Positions 27,163 through 30,765 of a DNA stretch of 30,765 nt are shown one piece after another (position 1 is the first letter of the stretch; the number at the start of each line of letters is the position of its first letter). The stretch is taken from positions 1-30,765 of IMG/VR virus record IMGVR_UViG_3300031873_000028; one strand, written 5' to 3'. The translations under genes and the position numbers were made by a program. A model generated the notes under the pieces. It ran no database searches. It had not been told where the DNA came from and saw only the letters and a list, made by a program, of their open reading frames with translations. Source of the stretch: a virus.

Positions 27163-27975
27163 GTGGAGCCCACACGAATGCCTGGCGTCAAAGCAAAAAG
27201 ATCCTACCGCATGCGGCCTCAAAGCCGAGAGCCTGGGCAGGGGCGCATTCGGAAATTGACCTGCTTTGATGAGGTGTACGGGCGCATCTTGGAGGGGTGG
27301 CCCCTCTCTGAGGTGGCTCGCTTCATTCAGGATGTCAAAAAAGAGGCGACCGATCTCACACGCGGAAGTCTGATGCAGTCCTTGCAGGACTTCCGTGGGA
27401 CCATCCCGCCTGCAGAACTTCTGAAGAAGCGCCTGACCCCTGTTTTTGTCGATGCCGCTAAAGAGGTCGAGGAGGGGCTAGACGAGCTGAGAGAAATAGA
27501 AAAGCTCTACAAGCTGCAGATGCGCCGCATTGATATTGATGTTCAAAACGAGAAGAACATCAAGAAACTGCTTCCTACGACAGGACAAGAGGTCCGTATC
27601 GCGAGAGAGATCTTGTCTACCTATGCTGATCTGAAGATGGATCTTGGCTTGTCTAAGAGACATCTAGGTCATATGGACGTGGATGCTCGTGTGATGGCCG
27701 ATGTGGCTCTTCGGTACAACAAAACCGAAGTGCAGACCGTGCTCAGCGATCCTCAGTCGCGTAAAAAAGTCCTGAGCTTGGTAGAGAGGCTCATGTCCAA
27801 ATCGGCTGGAGCCTTGGTTCAGGAACCGGTAGCGCAGGCTGTTATGGACGTGGAAGGGGAGCCTGTTGAAACGGTGGTGCTCGACGAAGAGCCTTTCGAG
27901 GGGAACTTGTTGGCGGAAGAGGACGAGTTGGACCCTCTAGCGGAGCCCATCGCTCCTTTGCCTGAAGAAGACTGA
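27163..27975 (+). CDS. Candidate small terminase subunit
   Basis: The 270-residue protein starts at GTG 27163 with GAGGAG six bases upstream. It has a basic N-terminus (KAKRSYRMRPQSREPGQGRI), a helical middle (VEEGLDELREIEKLYKLQMR) and an acidic C-terminus (EEPFEGNLLAEEDELDPLAE). Its stop overlaps the start of the large subunit gene, the usual place for a small subunit, and helical coiled regions with acidic tails fit such proteins. The family assignment rests on position and composition, not on recognised motifs. Confidence 0.5.
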   Translation: MEPTRMPGVKAKRSYRMRPQSREPGQGRIRKLTCFDEVYGRILEGWPLSEVARFIQDVKKEATDLTRGSLMQSLQDFRGTIPPAELLKKRLTPVFVDAAKEVEEGLDELREIEKLYKLQMRRIDIDVQNEKNIKKLLPTTGQEVRIAREILSTYADLKMDLGLSKRHLGHMDVDARVMADVALRYNKTEVQTVLSDPQSRKKVLSLVERLMSKSAGALVQEPVAQAVMDVEGEPVETVVLDEEPFEGNLLAEEDELDPLAEPIAPLPEED

Positions 27976-30765
27976 TGCCGATCCTTCTTAAAAATGGACG
28001 CGCGCGAAGCGAGCGGACTCCGGAAGAGGTGGAGGACTTGCTCCGCAAGGAGATGGAGCATCTTACGCCGGCCGAACGCGCGACTCTTGAGATCGTTCTC
28101 AAGGAGATGCAACAGAAGGCGCCGCAGGCACAAGAGCGGCGGCTCATCGATGTCCTCGGAAACGCGGAGTACAACACCCCTCCCGTTGACATCATGACCT
28201 TCATCAAGGACCCCTATTACTTGGGTGCTACCTGCGACGGTGTCTATCCGAAGCTGAAGGAAGATCTCGTCGAACTGTTTGAAGGCGGCTACTACGTTGA
28301 GGCGATTTTTACGGGGTCGATCGGTTGGGGTAAATGTGTGCATAGTACAACTGAGGTATTCGATCTGTCTTCGGGCAGACGGAGAACAGTTGCAGAAGCT
28401 GGTGAGTTCTGCGTCCCTTCCATGGACGCGAAAGGTAAGATCCTAAGCAAAGCCGCAAAGGCTTTTCCTTCAGGTAGAAAGTCCTGCGTTCGGCTGATTC
28501 TTGCCGGAGGCCAGCACCTCATACTCAGCACCGACCACAAGGTTTTCACTTCTCGTGGTTGGGTTGAAGCCGCTTTGATTGGCGAAGGAGATCTTGTAGC
28601 CACACCAAGATCTATTCCGGATCCGGAACGGTTCTGTGATGTGTCGGAGGATGAAGTAAAGCTGGCGGCCTATCTTCTCTCTGATGGCGGCTGCACGCAC
28701 AGCATCACGTTTACGAATGAGACGCCCAGTATTTTGGATGAGTTCGTGGGACTTGTTCGTACCGTAGGGTCGATTCGCAACGGCCTACCGCCCGATGCTC
28801 GTCCTGCCGCTCGTCAGAATGCTGGCAAGGCTACGACACTTAATGTGCGCGGGGTTATGGCCTTCGTTCGTAGGTGGGGTTTGGATGACCACTCACGGGA
28901 AAAAAGGGTTCCGGCCGAATTTTACGGGTTACGACGTGAACACCTCTCGGCCTTCCTCAATCGATTTTGGGCCTGTGATGGATCTCTTTCCGTACGTGCA
29001 CCGGCGAAAGCAGAAGTCACTCTAGCGTCGGAGGGTATGGTTGACGATCTTCGATTCATGTTGCTTCGGTTGGGCGTCCACGCTCGAAAGTACCCGAAGA
29101 CGAAATTCTACCGTACGCCTTCCGGCGAAAAACGTTCCTTTGCGGCTTGGTCGTTAACGGTCACCGGCGCCTCTAATCTGCTTCATTTCCTGGATGTTGT
29201 TGGGCCGGTTCTAGGGAAAGAGGCGACGTGCGAGGCGCTACGAGATGCGTGCTCGGGGATCAAATCGAATACGAACACGGATGTAGTGCCTGTCGGTTTT
29301 GACGAGCTTAAAGAGATTCGACACGAGCTAGGCAGCCAGGGTTCTGGTCTAACGGCGCGATTTGGGTGTCCCGAGGGCCAACTTTTCAGTCGTGCTCGGT
29401 TCGAGCGCTTGTGCGAGGAGACGCTGTATCAAGGCGAGCACGCTTGGTTGGCTCAATCCGATCTTCTTTGGGAGCACGTATCTTCCGTCGAACCTTATGG
29501 AGTGGCCGACGTTTACGATCTGTCAGTGAACGAGACTCACTCTTTTGTTGGCAACGGGATGGTGCTCCACAACACCTTCCTCGCTTCGATCGGGCTATGT
29601 CGGATTCTCTACGAGCTGTCTTGTATGAAGGATCCGCATGCCAGCTTCGGTCTGGCGAAGGACACCAACATCGCGTTGGTCTGTTTCTCTGTCAGCGAGG
29701 CGTTGGCCCAGAAGGTTGTCTACGAGAACATCGTTACGAAAATCAAAGCCAGTCCTTACTTCCAGGAGCACTTTCCGTTTGAGCCTACGAAGAAGGAGCT
29801 TCGATTCCCTAAGGCGGTCTGGGTGGCACCTCGCGCTTCGACCGACACTAGCGCGCTCGGCTTGAACACGATTGCTGGAATCATTGACGAGTCCAACTTC
29901 CTAGCGAAGCGCAAGACAGTGCTAGGCGAGGAGAGTCGAGCTGAGACGCTCTACAACACGATTAAGCGTCGTATGAAGAGCCGTTTCGAACGGCAGGGTA
30001 AGTTGCCGGGCATGCTCTTCGTGGTCTCCTCAAAGAAGACCAACGACGACTTCACGGCCAAGCGAATCAATGAATCGGTCAATGATCCGACGACGTTCGT
30101 TCGCGACTACGCTCTTTGGGACGTCAAGCCTGAGGACTATTTCAAGACGAAGCGCTTCTGGGTGCTTTGCGGTAACGCTGAAACAGCGTCCAAGATCTTA
30201 ACGGATGAAGAGGGGGAGCATTACAGGGACAACATTCCTGAAGGTTCTGCTGTCATCGATGTGCCGGAGGATTTCCGTCACGACTTTGAAGTGGACCTAG
30301 AAGGGGCCATTCGTGACATTGCGGGCGTAGCAACGGTCGCCGTTCACCCCTTCATTCAGCGTCGAGAGAAAATTAGAGAGGCTGTAGATCCTTCCCGCAA
30401 ACACCCCTTTTCAACCCTCGTTTACGACATGTCGAAGGGCGGTCGTTTTCTTTGGGATGAGATGGTGGCGATGAAGACGGAGAAGGCTCCGGGTCGGGTG
30501 GAGTTCCAGCGACTACGCCCCATCATTAGCCCTCATGCCGCGCGTCACATTCACATCGACATTGGTTTGCGGAAGGATGCCTTGGGGCTCTGTATGGGCC
30601 ATGTGGCGGGCTGGAAAGATGTTCGTCGTAGGACGGATGACGGCCGTGAGTTCGCCGAACGTGCTCCCATTTACATCATCGACTTGGCGCTTCGAGTAGT
30701 CCCTCCGATAGGCGGGGAAGTCTTGTTGTCGGAAGTTCGGCATCTGGTCTACGATCTGACCGCTC
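27975..30765 (+). CDS. terL: Large terminase subunit with intein in the P-loop, C-terminus beyond window
   Basis: The frame is open from ATG 27975 to the window end. The N-extein (120 residues, to 28334) ends FTGSIGWGK; after the intein the C-extein resumes TFLASIGLCRIL, so the spliced Walker A is GSIGWGKT. Walker B follows as TIAGIIDESNF (about 29865-29897). The nuclease domain begins with HIHIDIGLRKDALGL, with the RNase H-type Asp, and YIIDLALRV gives another acidic residue. This is a phage packaging ATPase-nuclease. The start overlaps the preceding stop by one base. The gene's 3' end is missing from the window. Confidence 0.88.
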   Translation, partial: MPILLKNGRARSERTPEEVEDLLRKEMEHLTPAERATLEIVLKEMQQKAPQAQERRLIDVLGNAEYNTPPVDIMTFIKDPYYLGATCDGVYPKLKEDLVELFEGGYYVEAIFTGSIGWGKCVHSTTEVFDLSSGRRRTVAEAGEFCVPSMDAKGKILSKAAKAFPSGRKSCVRLILAGGQHLILSTDHKVFTSRGWVEAALIGEGDLVATPRSIPDPERFCDVSEDEVKLAAYLLSDGGCTHSITFTNETPSILDEFVGLVRTVGSIRNGLPPDARPAARQNAGKATTLNVRGVMAFVRRWGLDDHSREKRVPAEFYGLRREHLSAFLNRFWACDGSLSVRAPAKAEVTLASEGMVDDLRFMLLRLGVHARKYPKTKFYRTPSGEKRSFAAWSLTVTGASNLLHFLDVVGPVLGKEATCEALRDACSGIKSNTNTDVVPVGFDELKEIRHELGSQGSGLTARFGCPEGQLFSRARFERLCEETLYQGEHAWLAQSDLLWEHVSSVEPYGVADVYDLSVNETHSFVGNGMVLHNTFLASIGLCRILYELSCMKDPHASFGLAKDTNIALVCFSVSEALAQKVVYENIVTKIKASPYFQEHFPFEPTKKELRFPKAVWVAPRASTDTSALGLNTIAGIIDESNFLAKRKTVLGEESRAETLYNTIKRRMKSRFERQGKLPGMLFVVSSKKTNDDFTAKRINESVNDPTTFVRDYALWDVKPEDYFKTKRFWVLCGNAETASKILTDEEGEHYRDNIPEGSAVIDVPEDFRHDFEVDLEGAIRDIAGVATVAVHPFIQRREKIREAVDPSRKHPFSTLVYDMSKGGRFLWDEMVAMKTEKAPGRVEFQRLRPIISPHAARHIHIDIGLRKDALGLCMGHVAGWKDVRRRTDDGREFAERAPIYIIDLALRVVPPIGGEVLLSEVRHLVYDLTA
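28335..29573 (+). mobile_element. Intein with LAGLIDADG homing endonuclease in terL
   Basis: This 413-residue in-frame insertion begins with Cys (TGT 28335) and ends VLHN (29562-29573), followed by Thr as the +1 nucleophile. Splicing block B is LSTDHKVFTSRGW (TxxH). The C-terminal block reads VYDLSVNETHSFVGNGM, then the terminal His-Asn. Two LAGLIDADG-type motifs, LAAYLLSDGG (about residue 110) and FLNRFWACDGS (about 206), mark a homing endonuclease, whose activity is unproven (SDG and CDG keep the acidic residue). It splits the P-loop between Lys and Thr, so terminase should be inactive until splicing. Confidence 0.92.

Follow-up and report, generated by a model that had tools for sequence, protein, structure and literature searches.

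The window, by which we mean the whole analysed stretch of 30,765 nucleotides, is a 30.8-kb IMG/VR virus contig that carries a replication module (DnaB, primase, helicase, RecA, RuvC, a Cas4-like exonuclease, PolA and ParB) and ends inside a gene for the large terminase subunit (TerL; Table 1); tRNA and Rfam searches of the window gave no match. Annotated phage terminases match the window TerL in tblastn with E values of 1e-59 to 1e-64; they belong to phages of Rhodobacter, Stenotrophomonas, Rhizobium and Vibrio (SIO-2-like). The gene product contains Walker A and Walker B motifs, the Asp-Glu of the latter (IIDE, 29886-29891 in the C-extein) being empty of the intein found there in relatives, as well as C-terminal acidic nuclease motifs, and in the longer contig L004 a portal gene lies downstream of the complete TerL (PHROG portal, E 2.4e-70). 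The joined extein, with the intein removed, matched no Pfam model and was weakly matched by PHROG TerL profiles (E 1e-3 to 2e-4), while a profile built from eight TerLs found no terminase among PDB sequences; thus, the terminase identity rests on the tblastn matches to annotated genes, the motifs and the portal neighbour. Two PHROG matches of the whole precursor, phrog_9666 and phrog_17415, were set aside, as both vanish with the joined extein and seem to be partly or more carried by the intein. A 270-aa protein is encoded directly 5' of TerL (27163-27975), with a PHROG of unknown function as its sole match (E 2e-7); it is possibly the small terminase subunit.

Table 1. Features of the window and of related terminase genes (a slash within a motif marks the point of insertion; positions in relatives follow the locus name)
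Feature	Position	Strand	Basis or remark
TerL gene	27975..30764	+	open frame running off the window end; L004 has the complete precursor of 1093 aa
N-extein, 120 aa, ending in the first Walker A part GSIGWGK (28314-28334)	27975..28334	+	aligned to intein-free L007-L010, L012-L015
Intein, 413 aa, class 1 (Cys1 ... His412-Asn413)	28335..29573	+	motifs, profiles, predicted structure
N-terminal splicing (HINT) part: block A (Cys1), block B (LSTDHKVFT, His68 codon 28536-28538)	28335..28616	+	Pfam Intein_splicing; Mtu RecA intein match; invariant columns
First LAGLIDADG motif, LAAYLLSDGG (D117 codon 28683-28685)	28662..28691	+	relatives' alignment; LAGLIDADG fold in model
Second LAGLIDADG motif, LSAFLNRFWACDG (D215 codon 28977-28979)	28944..28982	+	Pfam LAGLIDADG_3 at intein aa 204-290
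C-terminal splicing part: block F (DVYDLSVNETHSFVGNG, Asp395, His402) and block G (MVLHN)	29463..29573	+	NCBIfam intein_Cterm; alignment
C-extein, beginning with Thr+1 (nucleophile and Walker A residue)	29574..30764	+	alignment to intein-free relatives
Junction codons	Lys 28332-28334; Cys1 28335-28337; Asn413 29571-29573; Thr+1 29574-29576	+	
Site a	TG/SIGxGK		
Site b (the window's)	GK/T		
Site c	DE/TNF		Walker B
Site d	VRDY/xWDVK		
Site e	DLEG/SIRD		
Site f	HPxxG/SKD		nuclease domain
Walker B dual-frame inteins	L102:6588-7730 (=L214); L092:3849-5012 (=L217); L120:6546-7745 (=L219); L215:2658-3959; L218:2538-3950; L220:2634-4421; L221:1164-2921; L222:2529-3983; L225:2682-4448		
Paired P-loop inteins	L080:3393-5042; L108:3064-5433; L218		in L218 the first intein begins before the locus
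Site f inteins	L006:7767-8720; L012:3216-4169; L032:2329-3279; L112:4190-5140; L095:5628-6050		HPxxG/SKD
HNH inteins	L112:2213-3289; L102:8166-9236; L103:6987-8057		L112 at VRDY/xWDVK; L102 and L103 at DLEG/SIRD

The TerL frame of the window translation reads ...VEAIFTGSIGWGK / CVHSTTEVFD ... FVGNGMVLHN / TFLASIG..., and the insert is a class 1 intein with a two-motif LAGLIDADG endonuclease, placed exactly between the Walker A Lys and Thr. A preceding sequence-only reading had proposed such an intein, and its boundaries proved exact in translation; blocks B, F and G and the two LAGLIDADG motifs, which it had also recognised, were borne out by Pfam, NCBIfam and the alignment of relatives. Pfam Intein_splicing scored 56.8 bits on the window TerL (E 2.9e-15; cut-off 35.8 bits), and the intein itself was matched by Pfam LAGLIDADG_3 with 41 bits (E 2.3e-10; cut-off 22.5) and by NCBIfam intein_Cterm with 28.8 bits (cut-off 15.6), so that, with scores above the curated cut-offs, the intein assignment is no chance match. 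The class 1 residues C1, H68, H412, N413 and T+1 are all present together with the HINT splicing fold, and each of the two LAGLIDADG motifs supplies one acidic residue, D117 and D215 (the latter within FLNRFWACDG), which are conserved in 16/17 and 15/17 relatives, respectively. The block B residue three positions before His is usually Thr; in the window intein it is Ser, which is invariant across all 17 relatives. The GC3 of the intein is 0.53, versus 0.66-0.69 in the exteins, and a search of the window record found the intein in single copy in its own genome.

Single-sequence AlphaFold prediction of the intein reached a pLDDT of 37 and was discarded in favour of an AlphaFold2 run on 17 sequences from the alignment of relatives, which yielded a model with a mean pLDDT of 92.9 and a pTM of 0.91. 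The model displays an intein fold and a LAGLIDADG fold and matches solved inteins, the top PDB match being the endonuclease-bearing TliVMA intein 7qss (E 8e-24, TM 0.70), which is located in the P-loop of a V-ATPase (PMC8966425).

An identical intein occurs in three further IMG/VR contigs, and comparison of the four revealed 10 differences in the terminase gene, every one of them synonymous and located 3' of the intein; the Cys1, His-Asn and Thr residues are the same in all four and thus no assembly accident. Intein-free homologues align straight over the junction: the spliced window extein is gap-free across it with eight intein-free viral contigs (L007-L010, L012-L015) at 57-64% identity. 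Much closer pairs of filled and empty alleles at the window's site belong to sister inteins, namely L056 (filled) and L039 (empty), which are 96-97% identical on both flanks with an exact insert of 419 codons, and L005 (filled) and L009 (empty), with flanks 94% and 90% identical and an exact insert of 411 codons. As no empty allele from the window's own lineage is closer than about 60% identity, these comparisons do not capture the insertion event of the window intein. Searched alone against phage records, the intein gave no match above 60% identity, the matches being confined to Enterococcus, Listeria, Bacillus and Psychrobacillus phages and one uncultured record; 105 Gordonia phage records were rejected as intein relatives, because their match runs through the terminase. 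Its nearest relative is 56% identical, a distance at which dS would be saturated.

The distribution of these inteins is patchy. Of 71 distinct terminases that an intein-blind profile search found to span the P-loop, 8 have an intein there and 63 are empty. On the terminase tree of 84 TerLs, a set enriched by intein-guided search, the 18 carriers require 17 changes, which equals the value for shuffled labels; that is, presence is no more clustered than chance. Moreover, the window groups with L102, L103, L006, L056, L096 and L108 in the intein tree (support 100/100), whereas in the terminase tree it groups with L005, L043 and L044 (97/97), which carry another intein lineage. Holding the window, L005, L043 and L044 together, a group named from the opposite tree, was rejected on the intein data (AU p 0.0004), and the AU test of the conflict on the extein data gave p 0.02. 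Scattered carriers and disagreement between intein and terminase trees are as expected of a mobile element. Related inteins evolve under purifying selection (dN/dS 0.04-0.18 where estimable), which covers the endonuclease part too in the one pair allowing an estimate. In addition, a search with the intein profile turned up relatives inserted behind the Lys of further P-loop proteins of viruses, which from the flanking sequence look helicase-like in L118, DnaB-like in L128 and terminase-like in L123, L126 and L129. The view of the site as a highly conserved homing target held in part at the DNA level: in a scan of 24-bp windows along 58 intein-free terminases, the GSIGWGKT window is among the top 15, but the junction-centred one lies at the 73rd percentile. 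A TerL of the window's family with a related intein at a Lys/Ser site (37% identity) was also seen in a Phycisphaerae MAG contig (L134:3644-7006), a weak hint of a planctomycete host.

We read the window insert as a mobile class 1 intein that probably (we would say with a probability of roughly 0.87) brings its own LAGLIDADG homing endonuclease to the Walker A loop of a tailed-phage TerL. This reading brings together a precise in-frame insertion, complete splicing and endonuclease motifs, the folds, filled and empty alleles, patchiness and tree conflict. We infer that terminase and intein would be translated as a single precursor, and that the intein would excise itself through an N-S shift at Cys1, transfer to Thr+1 and cyclisation of Asn413, joining GSIGWGK to TFLASIG and rebuilding the ATP-binding loop. 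Before splicing the precursor would lack ATPase activity, the packaging ATPase remaining inactive until the intein is removed, and packaging can soundly be expected to depend on splicing, as the sequence-only reading had it. The free intein would, also at present, cut the corresponding site in the intein-free allele of a relative infecting the same cell, and repair would then copy the intein in.

It is also conceivable that the intein is retained for its use to the phage, with slow or conditional splicing (responding to redox, temperature or ATP) as a timer that delays packaging. The ATP loop is split by the intein, hence the unspliced protein should be inactive, and conditional splicing is documented for the P-loop inteins of DnaB and RadA (PMC6195587, PMC5790916). 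A lineage should keep a useful regulator, however, whereas here close relatives are without the intein, 63/71 distinct TerLs are empty at the site and presence is unclustered on the tree, which makes a timer improbable. Inheritance of the window intein by descent only, with splicing intact and the endonuclease dead, would be less far-fetched, and decay of this kind does occur: an intein at the same site in L006, which shows what would be the decayed end of the homing cycle, has lost about 80 residues and both catalytic Asp, and that of L112 has lost the second endonuclease Asp. The window copy retains both Asp, a full-length endonuclease and a confident predicted fold, so that we consider this explanation unlikely. 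Lastly, a metagenome contig ending within its TerL gene might raise the suspicion of a chimeric assembly or of a terminase gene decayed to a pseudogene, which the identical sequence in four contigs with synonymous differences only, and the complete frame of L004 with its adjoining portal, effectively rule out.

The window intein sits in a member of a gene family that is unusually intein-rich, with at least six intein positions (sites a to f in Table 1) and up to three inteins per gene, as in L102 (b, c, e), L112 (b, d, f), L218 (a, b, c) and, judged by profile gaps, L225 (b, c, f). Since all mycobacteriophage terminase inteins were placed in the ATPase domain (PMC5050341), site f in the nuclease domain falls outside the known pattern. 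One of its occupants (L095) is a 141-aa mini-intein without an endonuclease, with L083 as intein-free partner at 93-96% DNA identity, and the site f intein of L032 likewise has an intein-free partner in L025 (89-91% DNA identity). Besides, two inteins can share one P-loop, separated by a six-residue middle extein, SIGWGK or SIGFGK (TG/intein/SIGWGK or SIGFGK/intein/T); spacings quoted between inteins are 48 and 85 residues (PMC8966425). Several further inserts came to our attention. The terminase of Rhodobacter phage RcTiptonus, annotated as 'terminase' only, has an insert at Lys/Thr (L017:2170-3174) that starts with Arg, has a Cys in block F and ends in THN, and which looks like a class 3 intein. 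The TerL of Gordonia phage GordTnk2 (L133:1159-4194) bears a long insert after ...YAEEAWN/CVDEKTQILS, which seems to be a further intein in another position, and the very similar TerL genes of L220 and L221 differ by a short Lys/Thr mini-intein present in the former and absent from the latter.

At Walker B, nine distinct inteins keep the splicing frame continuous and contain, in addition, an open frame of 256-489 codons in +1 of the same DNA. In the three that were scanned, the +1 frame matches NUMOD3 (E 4e-17 to 8e-6) and a TnsA-like endonuclease (E 2e-10 to 9e-10). Between L102 and L092, conservation is higher for the +1 product (51%) than for the product of the terminase frame (32%). For each of the nine, the terminase frame was left open in 0/2000 synonymous shuffles of the +1 frame, with 6.5-24.8 stops expected; thus, selection seems to maintain the open terminase frame. 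A stretch resembling a Shine-Dalgarno sequence precedes an internal ATG in some of these inteins (ggaggagaagcgATG in L218). The +1 frame of L218 would start at position 2860. The nearest precedent for dual frames in the open-licence literature searched is the ShiLan domain, an out-of-frame endonuclease within an in-frame insertion (PMC11855218). Its likeness concerns the Walker B inteins of the relatives and not the window intein, and it differs from them in having an HNH nuclease and no splicing domain, whereas they have a splicing domain with NUMOD3 and a TnsA-like nuclease. We consider it likely that several intein lineages without relation to one another, LAGLIDADG and HNH ones included, use the terminase family as an array of targets, the six positions lying within active-site motifs or close to them. 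The Walker B inteins would represent a new design, with a predicted splicing domain in the terminase frame and a predicted NUMOD3 and PD-(D/E)XK (TnsA-like) endonuclease in +1, three relatives would carry two inteins flanking the six-residue middle extein, and the window intein would be the commonest occupant.

P-loop inteins at Lys/Thr are already known, and the exact terminase site is so too: mycobacteriophage TerL1-a inteins lie between the invariant P-loop Lys and Thr, which was called a 'classic' P-loop insertion (Kelley et al., mBio 2016, PMC5050341). The window intein likewise sits in a large terminase at this position and shares the Lys/Thr insertion of the TerL1-a group but not its type of extein, as TerL1-a exteins are Terminase_1 proteins of actinobacteriophages, whereas the window extein is without a Pfam terminase match and belongs to another terminase lineage. 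Thus, the window adds a new case in another lineage to a published site. VMA-b inteins (TliVMA and PhoVMA; 7qss, 7qst) provide the best fold match and are among the best PDB sequence matches, sharing the P-loop site and the combination of HINT and LAGLIDADG endonuclease domains, although their host protein is an archaeal V-ATPase and their identity to the window intein is about 20%. MCM-a inteins of Haloarchaea are inserted after the Walker A lysine, with neighbouring sites in one gene and patchy presence, and MCM and VMA are named at a position equal to the window's (PMC10643990). The window intein and its family resemble them in all three respects, but MCM-a interrupts a cellular helicase in host DNA and the window intein a phage gene. 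Finally, two inteins occur in the TerL of a crAss-like phage (PMC7886860), so that this terminase, like those of the window's relatives, bears more than one; those inteins are of the Hint-Hop type and from gut phages, whereas the window TerL has one intein and its relatives up to three.

Taken alone, the window is one more case of inteins gathering at ATP loops; its terminase lineage is remote from that of the actinobacteriophages for which the Lys/Thr terminase site was described. More novel than the window intein itself are the six sites in this one family, the paired P-loop inteins and the putative +1-frame endonuclease genes at Walker B. In the relatives, the same gene occurs as natural alleles with and without an intein that reach 97% identity, shows both intact and decayed endonucleases at a single site, holds as many as three inteins at once and includes inteins with a putative second gene in another frame. 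Such natural variants allow direct tests of homing among phages in the same cell, of how neighbouring inteins interfere with one another and of the translation of the hidden endonucleases.
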